Positions 14,005 to 55,276 of a stretch of 64,000 nucleotides of DNA are shown here, piece by piece. The notes under the pieces are model-generated. The model saw only the letters and a list, made by a program, of their open reading frames with translations, searched no databases and was not told the DNA's origin. Source of the DNA: Prevotellaceae bacterium (GTDB lineage: Bacteria; Bacteroidota; Bacteroidia; Bacteroidales; UBA932); the NCBI GenBank assembly GCA_031258195.1, contig JAIRNF010000039.1, forward strand, positions 62,001 through 126,000, read 5' to 3'. How positions within the stretch are numbered: position 1 is the stretch's first letter; every line of letters begins with the position of its first letter. The position numbers and the translations under genes were made by a program.

Positions 14005-14379
14005 ATGAGAACATTAAAAACTTTAGCCTTGGTAATAGCGGCGTCGCTTTTACTTTTCGCTTGCGGTGGAAGTTCGCCGGAATCTGTAGTATCAAAATAT
14101 TTGGATGCTGTTAAAGCTGTTGATTTAAAAGCGGCAAAAGAGTGTCTTAGTAAACCATTGGCGGTAGAGTTCGAGGAAATGACTCGTGATTTTAGCGAGG
14201 ATGAAATTAAAGAGCTAAAAGAGGAAAATGCGAACATGAATGTTAAAGTTGTTCGTTCGGAAATTGACGGAGAAACAGCTGTTGTTTATCTCGAAGAAGC
14301 GCATAGCGATCATTCTCACGAACGGAAAATTCCGCTGATAAAGGAAGACGGGCAATGGAAAATGAATATCATCTATTAA
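14005..14379 (+). CDS. Small lipoprotein, tandem paralog 1 (DUF4878-like)
   Basis: Signal peptide with lipobox 'LLLFACGGSSPESVVSKYLDAV'; ends 'LIKEDGQWKMN'. Confidence 0.75.
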   Translation: MRTLKTLALVIAASLLLFACGGSSPESVVSKYLDAVKAVDLKAAKECLSKPLAVEFEEMTRDFSEDEIKELKEENANMNVKVVRSEIDGETAVVYLEEAHSDHSHERKIPLIKEDGQWKMNIIY

Positions 14380-14388
14380 TAGTGTACT

Positions 14389-14781
14389 ATGAAGATTATT
14401 AAAGTTTTTACAATTCTGGCTGTTGTAGCTTCTATCTTATCTTCATGCGGCGCGAGTAGTCCTGAAGCTATTGCCGGAAAAGTTTGTAAGGCGGCGCTTA
14501 ACGGAGATGTTGAGACAATGATTAAGCATGCTACTAAGCGCCAAGTTCCTAAGCTTGAGGAAGCAAAGGTATTTTTTGAAGCGAATAAAGCCGAAATGCA
14601 AAAGGAAAATAAAAAAAATAGTTCGCTTAAGCTTATCAAAATAGAATATGACGATGATAATACGGCTGTGGCTAAATTTGAGCGTACAATAAAAGACGAA
14701 GATGGGGACGAATCGTGCGAAATAGATGTTCTATTGATAAAAGAAGACGGTAGCCGGAAGGTTGAGCATGTAATACTTTAA
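14389..14781 (+). CDS. Small lipoprotein, tandem paralog 2 (DUF4878-like)
   Basis: 'ILSSCGASSPEAIAGKVCKAALNGDVETMIKHAT ... LIKEDGSRKVEHV'. Confidence 0.75.
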   Translation: MKIIKVFTILAVVASILSSCGASSPEAIAGKVCKAALNGDVETMIKHATKRQVPKLEEAKVFFEANKAEMQKENKKNSSLKLIKIEYDDDNTAVAKFERTIKDEDGDESCEIDVLLIKEDGSRKVEHVIL

Positions 14782-14828
14782 GGCTTCCAGAACCTAGAAT
14801 TGATTTTTAGATAATCGGATTAATCGTT

Positions 14829-14866
14829 AAAAATAGGCTGAGCCACCTCGGGCGCAGCCTATTTTT
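14829..14866 (+). terminator. Hairpin terminator candidate
   Basis: aaaaataggctg ... cagcctattttt inverted repeat followed by T-rich tract. Confidence 0.7.
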
Positions 14867-14991
14867 ATTTATAAGCTAATCTTTTGCGAATAAAGAAAAA
14901 ATAAATAGGCGAAACAGCCAATAGAAAGTGGATACTTTGAGATAAAAAACATACTTTTGCTACAAAATGATTTAACCCCTTATTTAACGAA

Positions 14992-15378
14992 GTGAAAATA
15001 GTTAGATTTTTTACGCTAGCATTATGCGTAATGCTTATGCCGTCCGCGTGTGGCGGCGGAACGCCCGAATCTGTCGCCGAAAAATATTGCAAAGCGATTA
15101 TGTGTGCTGATGTAAAAACCGCGGTAAAGTATGCTACAGCATCTGAATCCGAAGATATTAACGAAATTTTATCAGATGCAGAAACCAGAGAATTTGTATT
15201 AAAAGCCTATGATGGTGCGAAGCTAAAGCTTGCCGCCTCTGAGATTGCGGAAGATAACGAATCTGCCGAGGTTGTCTTTGATGTTGAAACGGCTCCGGAC
15301 AGCGAAAAAGAAAATCTTCAAATGAGGGTTAGTCTAGTAAAAGAAGGCGGTAGCTGGAAGGTTAATAGGCTTAGATAA
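14992..15378 (+). CDS. Small lipoprotein, tandem paralog 3 (DUF4878-like)
   Basis: GTG start; 'LMPSACGGGTPESVAEKYCKAIMCADVKTAVKYAT ... LVKEGGSWKVNRL'. Confidence 0.75.
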   Translation: MKIVRFFTLALCVMLMPSACGGGTPESVAEKYCKAIMCADVKTAVKYATASESEDINEILSDAETREFVLKAYDGAKLKLAASEIAEDNESAEVVFDVETAPDSEKENLQMRVSLVKEGGSWKVNRLR

Positions 15379-15422
15379 GAAATCCGTTTTATTTATTATA
15401 ACCATTCTAATTTTAAATTATC

Positions 15423-15809
15423 ATGAAAACATTAAAGAGTATTGTTATCGCACTATGTGCGGTGTGTATGTTAACCGCATGCGGCGGAGGTGGAAATCCC
15501 GAATCTGTCGCTTTAGACTTCCAGAAAGCCGTGATGAATGGCGATTTTGAAGAGGCCGTTAAGTATGCTACAGAAAATACGGCCCCAATGCTTAAACGAA
15601 TGGCATCAATGGGGGGAGCAGAAGAGATGAAAGGAGTAAAAGAAGAATTTAAAAATACAAAAGTTGCTGTTAAGAGTTCTGAAATTGACGAAGAAGCTGG
15701 TACTGCGATAGTTACACTGGAGCTAACAAATGCTGATGGAGATACTGATATTGCTAGATACGACCTGATTAAAGAAAATGGCAGCTGGAAAGTTATCTTT
15801 AAGAAGTAG
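15423..15809 (+). CDS. Small lipoprotein, tandem paralog 4 (DUF4878-like)
   Basis: 'MLTACGGGGNPESVALDFQKAVMNGDFEEAVKYAT ... LIKENGSWKVIFKK'. Confidence 0.75.
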   Translation: MKTLKSIVIALCAVCMLTACGGGGNPESVALDFQKAVMNGDFEEAVKYATENTAPMLKRMASMGGAEEMKGVKEEFKNTKVAVKSSEIDEEAGTAIVTLELTNADGDTDIARYDLIKENGSWKVIFKK

Positions 15810-15848
15810 TAGTAGAATTTCTGCTTAAGCAAATATCATATAGTAGCT

Positions 15849-16262
15849 ATGAAAATACTTAGAAACCTTGCTATCGCTGTTTTTACAACACTGATGTCAA
15901 CCGCTTGTGGTGGCGGAACGCCCGAATCTGTCGCCGAAAGCTATGTTGAAGCATTCCTAAATGCCGATTACAAAAAGGCCGCTAAGCTTGCAACCAAAGA
16001 GTATGCTGCCGAAATTTTAGAAGAGGTAAAAGATGTTCCTGCCGAAGTAATAAAGCAAGTAATAAAGCAGGTTGTAGAAGAAAGAAAAGCGGAGTATAAA
16101 GGTATTAAATATAAAATTATTGATACCGATATTGGTAAAAAAGGTGCTACCGTTCGATTTGAATTTACTTTAAATGGTGAAACAGACACGGGTAGAGTAG
16201 ATCTGGTAAAAGAAGGCGGTAGCTGGAAAGTCGAAGGCGAAAGCTTGTATCTAGCATTCTAA
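15849..16262 (+). CDS. Small lipoprotein, tandem paralog 5 (DUF4878-like)
   Basis: 'LMSTACGGGTPESVAESYVEAFLNADYKKAAKLAT ... LVKEGGSWKVEGE'. Confidence 0.75.
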   Translation: MKILRNLAIAVFTTLMSTACGGGTPESVAESYVEAFLNADYKKAAKLATKEYAAEILEEVKDVPAEVIKQVIKQVVEERKAEYKGIKYKIIDTDIGKKGATVRFEFTLNGETDTGRVDLVKEGGSWKVEGESLYLAF

Positions 16263-16333
16263 AAGAGCAATAAGTTGTAAATCAGCTGAGTTAATTATGT
16301 TGACTCGGCTTATTTATTACCATTATCCGTCAA

Positions 16334-16705
16334 ATGAAATTATTGAAAAACCTCCTTCTTCTTTTTCTCTTTACGGCTACCGCTTGTAGTAAAGATACTC
16401 CCGATACGGTGGTTACTAATTTTCAAGATGCCCTCGAAAAAATGGATCTCGAGAGAGCAAAAAGCTATATATCTAAAGATGCTATACCGATTTTTGATAT
16501 GCTGATAAAAATGGCAGATGAGAACGGCTCTGAGGATATAGAAGCTGGACAAGATATTACGTTTACAATTAAAAGTGTAGATATAAATGATGCTGAAGAT
16601 ATAGCGGCTGTTATCTCTCAAATGATAGATAATAGCGGCGGCGTAGTTGATGAAACAACGTTCTCTTTAGTAAAAGAAGAGGGCAAGTGGAAAATTATTT
16701 TTTAA
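16334..16705 (+). CDS. Small lipoprotein, tandem paralog 6 (DUF4878-like, divergent)
   Basis: 'FLFTATACSKDTPDTVVTNFQDALEKMDLERAKSYIS ... LVKEEGKWKIIF'. Confidence 0.75.
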   Translation: MKLLKNLLLLFLFTATACSKDTPDTVVTNFQDALEKMDLERAKSYISKDAIPIFDMLIKMADENGSEDIEAGQDITFTIKSVDINDAEDIAAVISQMIDNSGGVVDETTFSLVKEEGKWKIIF

Positions 16706-17334: not shown

Positions 17335-17368
17335 AAAGGTTTGAGCACAGGTTATTGCTCAAACCTTT
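17335..17368. terminator. Bidirectional hairpin terminator between convergent genes
   Basis: aaaggtttgagca ... tgctcaaaccttt perfect 13-bp arms. Confidence 0.8.
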
Positions 17369-48338: not shown

Positions 48339-49754
48339 TTATTGTGCTATAGCTTCTGCCACAGAATTGGCAATTAGCTCGTTTTGCTCTGTTGGCTCAA
48401 TAAATGCCGCCGATTTTTTTACTACCTGCATACCTTCTAAAAGCGGGTCTTTTTCGGCAAATTGTACGCGTTTAACCCAGCTGTAGATAGCATCTAAATC
48501 GCCGCCGTTAGGGCGGTCGGATGTAAGGTATCCGCTTTCCGCATCTTCGTCTTGCATGTATGCGTAATCGTTATATATTGTATTAATGGGGTAAGGAAGA
48601 TGCGCCAATGTTTTTGATATAGGTAAACCGTCATCGTTAAGCGTTACGCTGTAAACGTCCATTCCGCCCAAGCCCTTATGTCCGTTAGATGAGAAGGTAA
48701 GTGTATTACCGCTAACATTCGGATATAACTCATCATTTTTGGTGTTTACGCTTAAACCCATGTTAACGGGTTCGCTCCATCCTTTCTTTGTTTTTCTCGA
48801 CATGTAGATATCCATTCCGCCTCTACCGTCGGTAAAGTCTGCCGCAAAGTATAAACGCTCACCGTCTTCGCTCACCGATGGGTGGCAGATAGATGAGAAC
48901 GGTTTATCGTTGAAAATACTTTTTGCATTATCCCATTGTTGTGTTTTTTCGTTATAGCTAAGCTCTACAATGTTAAGGTAGTTGGTTACGATAGGCTCGT
49001 CTTTTTGCAGCCTAACCATTTGGTCTTCTCTGTAATGATTATCGGTATAAATCATCGATTTACCGTTGTTGTAAATGCAAGCCGGACCTGTTTGCAACGT
49101 TCTAGGAACTTTTGCGTAGGGCTTGCTGCTTTTACCGTCGTAAAAATACAGCTCTGCACCTCTAAGCATTGCGGCTTCGTTATTGTCGTTATGAATAAAT
49201 AGAATGCCGTTGTTGAAGCGAGAACACCAGAAGTTAGAACCTTTGGTATTAAAAGGTGCTTTATTTACGGCAGCGGTAGTCATAGACGGTAGGTTGCCGT
49301 ACTGCTCTAAACCTTGAAGCAGGTTTTGCAGCGGCTGGTAGCCTCTGTGAGAAGCCGAATAACCGTTGAACTGTTTAGCAACGTCAGCAGCACGCTGTAA
49401 CTTTTCGAGGCGAATCAGCGTATTTACATAGTCGCATGCAAACTGAGGCGTATAGGCAGCCATGTTACGCACTATTACCGCACCAAAACGCTTTTCTGCT
49501 TCTTTGTACTTACGGATATTGTACATAGCAGAAGCAAGTTTGATATTTACTCTATCATAAGTAAGCAAATCGATAGACTTATCGCTTAGTATCGATAAGT
49601 ATTCGTTCTCAGCTTCGGCAAATCGTTGCATTGTAACGTAACTGTCCGCTATTTTTTCGCGCGTAAGCTGGTCGTAGTTTTGTTTAGCATTTGCAGGCAT
49701 TAAGGCTAGGCTGAAAAGTGCTAGGATAAGCGATTGACGTAATAGAGTTCTCAT
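48339..49754 (-). CDS. TPR + PD40 beta-propeller protein, paralog 1 (no OmpA domain)
   Basis: 'CHPSVSEDGERLYFAADFTDGRGGMDIYMSRK', 'FSSNGHKGLGGMDVYSV'; start at MRTLLRQS preferred. Confidence 0.85.
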   Translation of the reverse strand: MRTLLRQSLILALFSLALMPANAKQNYDQLTREKIADSYVTMQRFAEAENEYLSILSDKSIDLLTYDRVNIKLASAMYNIRKYKEAEKRFGAVIVRNMAAYTPQFACDYVNTLIRLEKLQRAADVAKQFNGYSASHRGYQPLQNLLQGLEQYGNLPSMTTAAVNKAPFNTKGSNFWCSRFNNGILFIHNDNNEAAMLRGAELYFYDGKSSKPYAKVPRTLQTGPACIYNNGKSMIYTDNHYREDQMVRLQKDEPIVTNYLNIVELSYNEKTQQWDNAKSIFNDKPFSSICHPSVSEDGERLYFAADFTDGRGGMDIYMSRKTKKGWSEPVNMGLSVNTKNDELYPNVSGNTLTFSSNGHKGLGGMDVYSVTLNDDGLPISKTLAHLPYPINTIYNDYAYMQDEDAESGYLTSDRPNGGDLDAIYSWVKRVQFAEKDPLLEGMQVVKKSAAFIEPTEQNELIANSVAEAIAQ

Positions 49755-50106
49755 AATATTCATGTATAAAAGTACTTTATTGCTAGAATATAAGGATATG
49801 TTTCTACGCTGCTGCTTCAGCGTTTTCAATACAAATCTAGCAAATAAGTATTTTAATGCCTAAATCATTTTTCGAAAATTAACGTTCGATAAGAATTTGT
49901 GTTTTGATTAAAATATTGGTTATTAGTATTATGTGTGTTTAATGGACGTTAAATCGAAAGGGTATTTTTAACTTTGATTAGCATTAATTAGCTGTTAAAT
50001 TTTTTTTATGCCGCATATATTTTCTCTATAGGCATAAAAAACGCGGCCAATCAAGCTGCGTTTTTACGGTTTGGGGATAATGTTTTTCTCTTGTGCTTAT
50101 TTCTGG

Positions 50107-51480
50107 TTATTTTTTCTCTATTGTGTTCGGATTTGGGCGGGCTGTAATAGCCGCTTTTGGAAAAAGCGTATTGTCCGGGAGTTCCTCTTCCTCTTCTACC
50201 CATTCGTATATGGTATCAAGGTTGCGCCCCTCGGGTCTGTCAGACGAAAAGTAACCCTTTGCATCCGTGTTGTGTGTAAAGGCATAGTCGTTATATATGG
50301 TATTAATCGGATAAGGCATATGAACCAGCGTTTCCGGTATAGGCATTCCGCTCGAATCCAACTCAACGTAGTAGATATCCATACCGCCTAAACCTTCGTG
50401 ACCGTTCGACACAAAGTACAGCCTGTTTTGATAAATGTAAGGATACATCTCGTCATAGCTGGTATTAACGTAGCTGCCCAGATTTATCGGTTTACTCCAG
50501 CCTTTGCCCACTCTGCCGCACATGTAGATATCCATTCTGCCGACAGCATCGTCAAAGTTTGCGGAGAAGTACATGCGCTTTCCATCGTCTGTAACTGAAG
50601 GGTGACAGGTTGAGTACATCGTCTTATCCTTAAAAACGTCTTTAGGGTTCTCCCACATTTCGGTTTTAGGATTATAGTTTAGTTCTATGAGCCGAAGTGG
50701 GTTTGTTATAAGCCGTTGATCTTTCAACTCGCGCACAAAACCTTTTCCGAGGTAACGATTATCGGTATAGATAATCAGGTTGTTGGTTTTATCAAAAACA
50801 CCCGGTCCGGCTTGTAATGTGTGCGGTATTTTATTATACACTTCGCTTTTGTTACCATCGTATAGGTAGAACTGCGCGCCTTTAACCAGCGATCTCTCGT
50901 CGTTATCGTGATGCACGAATATAAGCCCGTTGGTATAATGTGTAGCAGCATAGTTCGAACCCGGTACGTTAATAGGAGAGTTGGTTACTTTATAAGGTAC
51001 AACAGCAGGCAAGTTAGTCTGATATTCTAAGCCCGCTCTAAGGTTTTGCAGCGGTTTGTATAGCTTATAAAGCGGATTTTGACTGAAAATTTCTGCTACG
51101 TCTATTGCCCGTTGGTATTTTCCTAAACGAATAAGTGTGGAAACGTAAGCTGTACCGAACTCTGGTGTAAATGCTTTTTTATTACGTACGAATACGGTTT
51201 CAAAGCGTTTATCTGCTTCCGAGTATCTACGGGTATTATAAAGGGTAGCTGCCAGTTTAATGTTAACCCGGTCGTAGCTTATTATATCAATTGAGCCGCT
51301 ACTCAGTACATCCATATATTCAACTTCAGCATTACCGTACTCTTGTATGGTAGCGCAAAGGTCTCCGCGTTTCTCGCTAGCTGTGGGGTTTATTTTCTTT
51401 TGGGCTTCTGCTATCGGGGAAAAGCTTAGAACGAAAAATAGCAATGCTAGAGTGATGCGTATTAAAATTAAATTTGCCAT
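50107..51480 (-). CDS. TPR + PD40 beta-propeller protein, paralog 2 (no OmpA domain)
   Basis: 'CHPSVTDDGKRMYFSANFDDAVGRMDIYMCGR', 'FVSNGHEGLGGMDIYYV'. Confidence 0.85.
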   Translation of the reverse strand: MANLILIRITLALLFFVLSFSPIAEAQKKINPTASEKRGDLCATIQEYGNAEVEYMDVLSSGSIDIISYDRVNIKLAATLYNTRRYSEADKRFETVFVRNKKAFTPEFGTAYVSTLIRLGKYQRAIDVAEIFSQNPLYKLYKPLQNLRAGLEYQTNLPAVVPYKVTNSPINVPGSNYAATHYTNGLIFVHHDNDERSLVKGAQFYLYDGNKSEVYNKIPHTLQAGPGVFDKTNNLIIYTDNRYLGKGFVRELKDQRLITNPLRLIELNYNPKTEMWENPKDVFKDKTMYSTCHPSVTDDGKRMYFSANFDDAVGRMDIYMCGRVGKGWSKPINLGSYVNTSYDEMYPYIYQNRLYFVSNGHEGLGGMDIYYVELDSSGMPIPETLVHMPYPINTIYNDYAFTHNTDAKGYFSSDRPEGRNLDTIYEWVEEEEELPDNTLFPKAAITARPNPNTIEKK

Positions 51481-51888
51481 ATATAATTGTATATGAACGA
51501 ACTAAATTGTATTTTAATGCGTGGCTATTTTATAAGCAAGCATAAAAATAAGCGGTTAATGGCTTAGCTAAAGAAAACCCAATTTTAAAAATACAATAAA
51601 ATCTTTTATGTAAACGTATAAATACTGATTTTATTTATTTTACTAAGATAGCTCAGCCTTTATCGTCCATAAAATATTTAACATTCTTTAACCTTATTGC
51701 TTCGCTATATATCACAGAGTATATTATTTACTATATTGATTATTAATGTATAATATGAAGTTGCTTTAAATAATATAGTGAAATTTCTGCTATTTTGAGA
51801 TTTAACTGTTTTTTAAGGGGTAAATTTAAAAAAACTGCTACTAATCTGTTAAGTATATAATGTACATTAGGGTGTGATACAAATAAAA

Positions 51889-52009
51889 AGGCTGTCTAAA
51901 AAGTTTCTATTTTCTTGTCATGTCGAACGGATGTGAGACATCCGCCTATAAAACAGCAGATTCCGCCTTTCAGTCGGAATGACATAATTGTTAACTTTTT
52001 AGACAGCCT
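51889..52009. repeat. MITE-like element with 17-bp perfect terminal inverted repeats
   Basis: aggctgtctaaaaagtt (51889-51905) vs aactttttagacagcct (51993-52009); interior contains a degenerate 'gtcatgtcgaac...cggaatgac' palindrome. Confidence 0.8.
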
Positions 52010-52040
52010 CTTTTGAACTTACTCTAAAAGAAAAGTATGT

Positions 52041-53816
52041 TTATTCTAAAATCTTTATTTCTGCCTTACGCGCAGGAGCCAGCTTGGCTTTTAAGTCTTT
52101 TGCATCGTTAACCTGTTCCTCCTCATCAAGCTGTAGTTGACCTTTACCTATAACCTCGATGGCATCGTCGGGGTAACCATTTTTTGCTAAGTATTCTTTC
52201 ACTACCTCTGCTCTTCGATGCGACAATTCTTGGTTGCTGTCGCTCGACCCTATTGCATCGGCATAGCCTAAAACAAGAATTCTAGGGGTATCGCCATCTA
52301 ACGATTCAATAAAAGCATCTATAATAGCTAACGCCTCTTTCGATAGTGTGCGGCTGTTAAATCCGTAGTAAACAGTAGTATCGGGGGTAGTTCTGCCGGC
52401 AATTAAATCTTTTGCTACATCTTCGGGCACTATCTCTCTAACTTGCGCCAGCTGCGCCGGGCGCTCTATTGTGGGTTTAACGGGAGCCAGAACAGGTTTA
52501 GGTTGCTCTTTCTTTACTTCAACTTTAGGCGTAACACGTTTTGCCCACACATAGATAGCATCAAGATCATTGCCGTTTGGGCGGTCGGAGCTGAAGTAGC
52601 CGCCGGTTGCCTTATCGTACATATACGCATAATCGTTGTAAACCGTATTGATAGGATAAGGCATATGTTCTAGCGTACCGCCGATAGGAAGCCCTTCTTC
52701 GTCTAACATTACGGAGTAGATATCCATTCCGCCAAAACCGTCGTGTCCGTTAGAGGTAAAGCAAAGAATATTGTCATATACATTCGGGTATAGCTCTTCG
52801 CCTACTGTATTTATAACGCTGCCAAGGTTAACAGGCGTATCCCATGCGCCTTTTGCGTTTTTACGCGACATATACAGGTCCGAACCTCCGCGAGAATCGG
52901 AAAAATCGGCAGAGAAGTACAAGTGTTGCCCATCATCGCTTAAAGCAGGATGGCAGATAGAATTTTCGTTTTTATTCTTAAACAGTTCTTTGGCATTTTC
53001 CCAAGTCTGCTTTTTCTCGTTATACTTTAGCTCCATAAGACGAAGCGAGTTGGTAATAATTTTTTGATCTTTCATCGAACGAACCATCTTGTTATCTCTA
53101 AAGCGGTTGTCGGTATAGATCATCGTGCTGCTGTCACGAGAAAATGTAGCCGGACCAGCCTGCATGGTTTGCGGAATATTGGTGTATAGCTGGCTGTTTC
53201 TTCCGTCGAAGTAGTAGAACTCGGCGCCTTTAATCATTGCTTTTTCATCTGAGCCAATGTGGATAAACATAATGCCATCCTCGTAGCGTGTACACCAAAA
53301 GGTTGATCCCGGTTGGTTAAACGGAGCCTTGGTAACGGCAACGCTTGATGTATCGGGGTTATTGCCCCAGTACTTTGCGCCTTCGGCTAAGTTGAGTATA
53401 GCCTTGTCGCTCGAAAACGGATGCTGCTTGGTTAAACGATCGGCTATCTCAATAGCGCGTTCGTTCTTGTCGTTACGGATAAGCGTAGTCAGAAATGCGG
53501 CAACCTGTTCAGGTGTAAATGCGCCAAGGTTATGGGCTGCTTTCTCAAAGTAATTTTCAGCCATTTCATAGCTACGCGTGGAGTAGTAAACGTTGGCGAG
53601 CTTAATGCTAACCCTGTCTTTTTCTGCCGGATCGATCTTCTTTTTTCCCAGAATTGCTTTATACTCCTCTTCAGCTTTGGCAAAATCTTGGTAGCTTACG
53701 TAAGTATCGGCTTTCTTCTCCGCCCCCGATAGCTTTGGTTGCTGCGCCTGTGCTGTTAAAGTGGTTATTAGTATAAAAATGTTGGCAATTAGTAATGCTC
53801 GTAAAGTTCTGTGCAT
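52041..53816 (-). CDS. TPR + PD40 + OmpA protein, paralog 3
   Basis: 'CHPALSDDGQHLYFSADFSDSRGGSDLYMSRK', C-terminal 'LVLGYADAIGSSDSNQELSHRRAEVVKEYLAKNGYPDDAIEVIGKG'. Confidence 0.9.
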   Translation of the reverse strand: MHRTLRALLIANIFILITTLTAQAQQPKLSGAEKKADTYVSYQDFAKAEEEYKAILGKKKIDPAEKDRVSIKLANVYYSTRSYEMAENYFEKAAHNLGAFTPEQVAAFLTTLIRNDKNERAIEIADRLTKQHPFSSDKAILNLAEGAKYWGNNPDTSSVAVTKAPFNQPGSTFWCTRYEDGIMFIHIGSDEKAMIKGAEFYYFDGRNSQLYTNIPQTMQAGPATFSRDSSTMIYTDNRFRDNKMVRSMKDQKIITNSLRLMELKYNEKKQTWENAKELFKNKNENSICHPALSDDGQHLYFSADFSDSRGGSDLYMSRKNAKGAWDTPVNLGSVINTVGEELYPNVYDNILCFTSNGHDGFGGMDIYSVMLDEEGLPIGGTLEHMPYPINTVYNDYAYMYDKATGGYFSSDRPNGNDLDAIYVWAKRVTPKVEVKKEQPKPVLAPVKPTIERPAQLAQVREIVPEDVAKDLIAGRTTPDTTVYYGFNSRTLSKEALAIIDAFIESLDGDTPRILVLGYADAIGSSDSNQELSHRRAEVVKEYLAKNGYPDDAIEVIGKGQLQLDEEEQVNDAKDLKAKLAPARKAEIKILE

Positions 53817-54109: not shown

Positions 54110-54985
54110 TTAAGGCTTCAACTTAAAGTATGCTGCCGGATCTTTATCAATATACCGTAGTGAATTTTGGGGCTTATCGAAGTTGAAGCCTCTCCACATA
54201 TAAATGGAGCTTAACTTTGAGTTATCGTAGCAGTAAAGGTAGTGTAGCAAGCTGTTGTTCGATAAGTCAAGCGATCTTAGTAAGTTTCTGTTACAGTATA
54301 AATTTTTTAAAGCCGTGTTGTTCGATAGGTTTATGCTGTTAAGCTTATTCGACGAGCAATCTAAGGCTACAAGCCGCGTATTGTTAGAAATATCCAGCGT
54401 TTTTAGGTTGTTAAAGCAGCAAATTAGTATACTTAGTTCGGTGTTATTTGTAAGATTCAGTTCGGTTAGCTGGTTGCCGCAACAGTCTAGTTCGGTTAAA
54501 GCCGTGTTATTCGATAGGTTTAGCGTATCTAGCCGGTTAATGCCACAAGCCAGGTTAGTAAGCACCGCATTGTTTTCTAAGTTAAGCTTGGTAATCTTAT
54601 TCTCCCTGCAGCTTAACCGTGTAAGCTTAGCGTTTTTTGATAGATCTAGACTTGTTATATTGCTACCGCTACAGTTTAGCATGGTTAAGTTGGTAAAATA
54701 CTCTATTCCGTCTAGCGATTCGATGTATGCTCTTTTTATCTTAGCTACAGAATCTAGGTTGTATGTAATGATAAGTTTGGGAGAGTAGCCGTCGTTAAGA
54801 ATATTCATTTCGGCTACCGTTGCGGCCTCATCCGGACTGAGAACGCCGTCGCCGTTAGCGTCAAAGCGTTGGCAGTATTCTTTGAAAATTGGGTCGGTTA
54901 TTTTGTCAAATATGTTGGCGATATCTTGAGCTAGTATGCTAAAAGCGGTAAGCATAAAAAGGCATAGCAGTAAAAATCTTTTCAT
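54110..54985 (-). CDS. Secreted leucine-rich-repeat protein with an EF-hand-like N-terminal segment
   Basis: 'DANGDGVLSPDEA'; tandem ~21-aa repeats 'LTxLxCxxNxLxxLxLSNN'; start at MKRFLLLC preferred. Confidence 0.88.
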   Translation of the reverse strand: MKRFLLLCLFMLTAFSILAQDIANIFDKITDPIFKEYCQRFDANGDGVLSPDEAATVAEMNILNDGYSPKLIITYNLDSVAKIKRAYIESLDGIEYFTNLTMLNCSGSNITSLDLSKNAKLTRLSCRENKITKLNLENNAVLTNLACGINRLDTLNLSNNTALTELDCCGNQLTELNLTNNTELSILICCFNNLKTLDISNNTRLVALDCSSNKLNSINLSNNTALKNLYCNRNLLRSLDLSNNSLLHYLYCYDNSKLSSIYMWRGFNFDKPQNSLRYIDKDPAAYFKLKP

Positions 54986-55276
54986 ACTATAATTTTTTAG
55001 AGTCGCGCAAAAGTACAAAAAAAACTTGAGTTGTTAAAAAACAATAAAAGAAAATAACGGTAAATTATTAATGTTTAACGGTTAAAGGTAAGCTGGTAAG
55101 TATTAGTGGGAAAGAACAATATAGGAATATGAATTTAAGAATTCAAGAGATATGAGGAATTTAAGAATTCAAAGTTTAAGGTTTAACAAGTTTAAATGGT
55201 CTAAGGCTTGGAAAACCTATGTGGTTTTATGTATCTGTGTGGTCAAAAGAAAAGGGCGTGTACTCAAAAATATTAT

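Follow-up and report, generated by a model that had tools for sequence, protein, structure and literature searches.

The six consecutive genes at positions 14005-16705 of the window (the whole stretch of 64,000 nucleotides analysed, from the contig JAIRNF010000039.1 of Prevotellaceae bacterium, assembly GCA_031258195.1) encode small DUF4878 lipoproteins and are followed by a single gene for a C92 protein. We give about an even chance to the reading that this locus is an expanded form of a conserved two-gene envelope unit, which joins an NTF2-like DUF4878 protein to a YiiX-type C92 protein and comprises here six pocket-bearing partners and one acyl enzyme. There is good support for both families and folds, for the conserved pairing and for a lineage-specific rise to six partners with one enzyme; A-F most likely are anchored in the membrane and serve as pocket-bearing partners of an enzyme directed at acyl groups. 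The genes are given below; the C92 gene, which starts ten bases past F, lay outside the original prediction.

14005-14379, + strand: A, DUF4878 (NTF2-like) lipoprotein, 124 aa; PF12870 31.8 bits, E 1.9e-7; lipobox LFAC-GGSSPE
14389-14781, + strand: B, DUF4878 lipoprotein, 130 aa; PF12870 28.8 bits; lipobox LSSC-GASSPE; without the C-terminal Trp
14992-15378, + strand: C, DUF4878 lipoprotein, 128 aa; GTG start; PF12870 24.7 bits, barely above the cut-off
15423-15809, + strand: D, DUF4878 lipoprotein, 128 aa; PF12870 44.8 bits, E 1.7e-11; AlphaFold pLDDT 85.9, best PDB match 3k7c
15849-16262, + strand: E, DUF4878 lipoprotein, 137 aa; PF12870 28.9 bits
16334-16705, + strand: F, DUF4878 lipoprotein, 123 aa; PF12870 29.6 bits; the most divergent; 10-bp gap to the C92 gene
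16716-17321, + strand: C92 / YiiX-YaeF-like permuted papain-fold lipoprotein, 201 aa; TTG start; catalytic His68 and Cys153

A-F are intact ORFs on the + strand that span exactly 14005-16705 and encode 123-137 aa. In the Pfam search all six exceeded the PF12870 gathering score (24.7-44.8 against 24.1 bits), and this HMM check, together with the fold of D, bears out the original prediction of a DUF4878-like, NTF2-like family. As they all pass Pfam and are linked by BLAST, the array as a product of chance or artefact was ruled out. The proteins had also been rightly called lipoproteins, a signal peptide and a lipobox Cys being readable in each of the six sequences; this Cys was invariant in an alignment of 58 DUF4878 homologues, and A (LFAC) and C (PSAC) deviate from an ideal lipobox. 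The shared motifs that had been listed are real, with exceptions in B, which ends in SRKV with no C-terminal Trp (present in A, C, D, E and F), and in F, which has CSKDTPDTVV in place of CGG..PESV. Compared with the DUF4878 family (PF12870; 3k7c), the array is alike in passing the cut-off, in the NTF2-like fold of D and in a lipobox as described earlier (PMC3924330), but differs in its six tandem copies, in the conserved Gly about 25 residues in (the NGD position), apparently found only in B and D, and in the lack of the conserved Trp in B. Lumazine binding, an old Pfam label of DUF4878 that has since been withdrawn (PMC3924330), was rejected as a function.

In Bacteroidetes, surface lipoproteins carry an export signal of acidic residues behind the Cys (PMC5080379). 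This SDDDD-type signal is absent from A-E and from the C92 protein and ambiguous in F (SKDTP), which favours a periplasmic position and, for A-E, disfavours a surface-facing binding role. Judged from these sequence features, all seven proteins would be lipidated and face the periplasm.

Structure prediction, run on D alone with an alignment to 57 homologues, gave a confident model of the NTF2-like fold, which the original prediction had proposed to check; the N-terminal half of the model is helical, and it has a sheet of four strands. The top PDB match was 3k7c (E 2.5e-5, TM 0.63/0.73), which is Cj0202c of Campylobacter jejuni, the solved DUF4878 protein. NTF2-like domains usually serve in the binding of small ligands in a conical cavity. 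DUF4878 has been proposed as a non-catalytic ligand binder, and the surroundings of its cavity are poorly conserved (PMC3924330). The weaker fold matches of D include the lipid-bound MlaC-type structures 5uwb, 4fcz and 2qgu; the likeness to MlaC/toluene-tolerance phospholipid-binding proteins lies in the NTF2-like core, but the TM is about 0.44 and the sequence matches to PF05494 (MlaC), seen in D and E, are weak at 14-15 bits, under the cut-off of 26. Further ligand-binding families likewise stayed under their Pfam cut-offs.

The C92 protein scored 25.7 bits (E 1.3e-5) against PF05708, just short of the cut-off of 27, and its YiiX-like label is based on the fold and the active site, not on the Pfam cut-off. 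Its AlphaFold model (pLDDT 90.7) matched YiiX (2if6, E 7.4e-7) best in the PDB, followed by 3kw0. Over 44 C92 homologues His68 and Cys153 were invariant, with the His preceding the Cys as in the permuted papain order, and the near-invariant His83 follows His68 by 15 residues, the distance at which the Bacillus cereus enzyme has the third residue of its triad (PMC3142127). The best fold match, the permuted Cys/His and the polar His83 are thus shared with YaeF/YiiX (PF05708; 2if6, 3kw0), from which the array's C92 protein differs in its sub-threshold Pfam score and in belonging to a C92 group whose members mostly adjoin a DUF4878 gene. In crystal structures the S1 pocket of YiiX-type enzymes is hydrophobic and, in YiiX, holds a fatty acid; cleavage of lipid-amino acid amides has been proposed for these enzymes (PMC3142127). 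Permuted relatives act on acyl chains, Tox-Act1 as a phospholipase and Lnb as a lipoprotein N-acyltransferase (PMC12994826), and LnsA together with a second protein brings about lipoprotein N-acylation (PMC7387801). LnsA/LnsB and Lnb therefore resemble the present locus as permuted NlpC/P60 enzymes on acyl chains, one of which needs a second protein; however, LnsB is of CPBP type and not NTF2-like, and the source genome has its own Lnb_N gene elsewhere. With that gene present, C92 as the genome's missing lipoprotein N-acyltransferase is unneeded and was set aside.

The pairing of the two families was surveyed in 295 genomes of the order, in the regions around DUF4878 matches and in those of family relatives. 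A C92 gene lay at most 106 bp from a DUF4878 gene, or overlapped it, at 30 of the 45 order loci, in all 30 cases on the same strand and in both gene orders; about a third of the order's DUF4878 loci had no nearby C92, some of them being truncated by contig ends, and the DUF4878 domain may work without C92 as well. Because the models of this order and family scan were built from, and iterated on, the loci themselves, an independent check was run with Pfam models only on 148 genomes spread across the phylum, in which all seven other genomes with DUF4878 had an adjacent same-strand C92 gene, the ORFs being confirmed. The reverse search, on loci picked from low-scoring C92 matches, found a DUF4878-like neighbour at 11 of 15. 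The pair is carried by Flavobacterium ichthyis, several Chitinophagaceae, a Treponema, a Leptospiraceae bin and Stenoxybacter acetivorans. Over 60 paired loci, most of them reached via DUF4878 (the paired share among all C92 genes is outside the reach of these counts), a search for a third conserved gene gave as the commonest one found in seven, all from the Chitinophagaceae group, and the flanks were not conserved. The surroundings and the internal order have changed and the pair has been kept, which is not what one ancient pair surviving only by lack of rearrangement would show. On a C92 tree from a quick search over limited columns, the paired label needed 4 changes against 22 in shuffles. 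The wider flanks of 20 generic C92 loci had no DUF4878-like ORF in 19 cases and one marginal match. At the array, F and C92 stand in the same gene order as in family relatives. A functional link of the DUF4878 family to C92 is very probable. Both families are known, and for their pairing we found no earlier report in titles and abstracts, subscription journals being mostly beyond the search; the only paper found to name DUF4878/PF12870, with few subscription journals covered, does not report it (PMC3924330).

The original prediction had called the local expansion unusual, and rightly so: Pfam matches to DUF4878 were found in 43 of the 295 order genomes, usually as one copy per genome having any and at most three in any other genome, against six and a relic here. 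Among the other pair loci seen, the maximum was two DUF4878 genes beside C92, and the relatives of genus group g21 with the pair had one or two. A sensitive search of 120 genomes of the source family gave at most six matches in any other genome, scattered over contigs; all of these comparisons of copy number are at species level. It is highly likely that the array is a lineage-specific expansion of the DUF4878 partner of C92, and A-F probably represent an enzyme's helper, multiplied to an unusual degree.

Several further loci came to light. A degraded seventh DUF4878 copy without its N-terminus lies on another contig of the source genome, at L007:1501-1755 (G000 contig C6:11833-12087), near a gene resembling GTPase Der, its start and lipobox being lost behind stop codons, and two distant DUF4878 homologues with no C92 close by occur elsewhere in the source genome. 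Genome G242 has three tandem DUF4878-like genes without a nearby C92 (L058:4498-5866) and a separate DUF4878-C92 pair (L054). In a 178-aa ORF at L043:4989-5525 the start of a C92 protein is followed, from the lipobox Cys on, by a mature DUF4878 domain; this looks like a deletion or an assembly error and not like a working fusion. Just upstream of a generic C92 gene, the 275-aa ORF at L184:1065-1892 gave a marginal DUF4878 profile match (E 9e-5) and is possibly a distant form of the pairing. In the window itself, another local expansion was observed at 48339-53816 on the - strand, where three large paralogues with PD40-like repeats stand in a row, at least one with an OmpA-like C-terminal part, and the secreted product of 54110-55018 has leucine-rich repeats and, close to the N-terminus, a segment (DANGDGVLSPDE) that resembles an EF-hand or a dockerin.

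In all-against-all BLASTP the pairwise identity of A-F was about 20-41% (E down to 1e-25), with B-F as the weakest pair. The strong divergence in the middle that had been described is real, identity being 38-39% in the N-terminal helix and in the final strands and 20% over residues 51-78, but it belongs to the whole family and not to the array, as the matching columns have 14% identity over 58 DUF4878 homologues. Synonymous sites approach saturation (pS 0.57-0.81), dN is lower than dS in every case in which dS is computable and the best nucleotide identity within the array is 57%. Recent tandem duplication is ruled out by this nucleotide identity and the near-saturated synonymous sites, and on these divergence measures the added copies are old. 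In the phylogeny, also a quick search over limited columns, A-E form a group of modest support (SH-aLRT 84) that excludes F, as would fit an old F-C92 unit to which A-E were added.

The gaps between the genes contain the following predicted signals:

14829-14866, + strand: intrinsic terminator-like hairpin in the B/C gap; 12-bp inverted repeat with A and T runs; -23.4 kcal/mol
14952-14959, + strand: TACTTTTG, like the Bacteroidetes -7 box TAnnTTTG, upstream of C; weak, with no -33 box at standard spacing
16284-16310, + strand: terminator-like hairpin in the E/F gap; 12 pairs; -14.5 kcal/mol
17335-17368, no strand: bidirectional-type terminator-like hairpin closing the locus; 13 pairs; -18.5 kcal/mol

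The first hairpin was missed by the terminator scanner, whose loop range is 3-8 only, and a pattern scan near the array found no match to the full Bacteroidetes promoter. The terminator-like hairpins suggest the transcription units A-B, C-D-E and F-C92.

In the proposed mechanism, C92 would hydrolyse or transfer an acyl group of a lipid, lipoamino acid or lipoprotein via a Cys/His thioester, and the NTF2-like pocket of each DUF4878 protein would bind an acyl or other hydrophobic ligand, which it may pass to C92 or take from it, or the DUF4878 protein may gate the activity of C92. F-C92 would represent the ancestral unit and A-E later copies, the six paralogues differing in ligand or in expression; the tie of A-E to C92 is one of homology and position, and their predicted transcription units are other than that of C92. 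That DUF4878 is a ligand-binding or presenting partner and not an inhibitor has, in our estimate, slightly less than an even chance.

It is possible, though on the unlikely side, that the DUF4878 proteins are inhibitor- or immunity-like guards capping the active site of C92, a potentially membrane-damaging acyl hydrolase that would be active only once released, the six copies giving graded or redundant control. The idea survives because of the conserved C92 enzyme partner and its tight pairing; periplasmic toxicity is possible for permuted papain enzymes, which have cognate immunity proteins (Tox-Act1, PMC12994826), and restraint of NlpC/P60 enzymes by NTF2-like proteins of their operons has been proposed (PMC3924330). 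Those DUF3828-NlpC/P60 operons likewise combine a secreted NTF2-like protein with a papain-like enzyme, but they involve another NTF2-like family and partners described there as peptidoglycan-processing, whereas the partner here is permuted and lipid-type. A and C have weak matches to PF16800 (the DL-endopeptidase inhibitor IseA), but at 16-18 bits these fall below the cut-off of 29.9 and cover C-terminal strands only. Moreover, C92 is a membrane-anchored chromosomal protein and not a secreted effector, the T6SS sheath gene VipB was not found in the genome by a model that may miss Bacteroidales systems, and no mobile-element or toxin genes were recognised next to the array.

We consider it rather improbable that A-F are independently useful periplasmic binders of small ligands and C92 a leftover of an older pair with no part in the function of A-E: a terminator-like hairpin does part A-E from F-C92, and DUF4878 genes are unpaired in many genomes, as are the two distant homologues in this one, but C92 has been kept with its catalytic His and Cys, and F-C92 retains the gene order of family relatives. 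The diversifying function of the original prediction was not borne out, and a lipoprotein array under diversifying selection by exposure to hosts, phages or competitors is highly improbable, for the six divergent paralogues and the birth and death suggested by the relic stand against a variable middle common to the whole family, near-saturated dS with dN below it and the export signal that is absent, or in F ambiguous.

Returning to the DUF4878 proteins as partners of the C92 enzyme, a broader and still doubtful proposal is that the two families form an undescribed two-protein envelope acyl-remodelling system of Bacteroidota, spirochaetes and some betaproteobacteria, in which DUF4878 would select or carry the substrate, and which would have been multiplied sixfold here. 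To DUF4878 and to the poorly understood YiiX-type bacterial enzymes, the tight conserved pairing gives a concrete partner each, by which both functions become testable. The array offers a natural example of helper multiplication beside a single enzyme and can serve to ask what the helper specifies.
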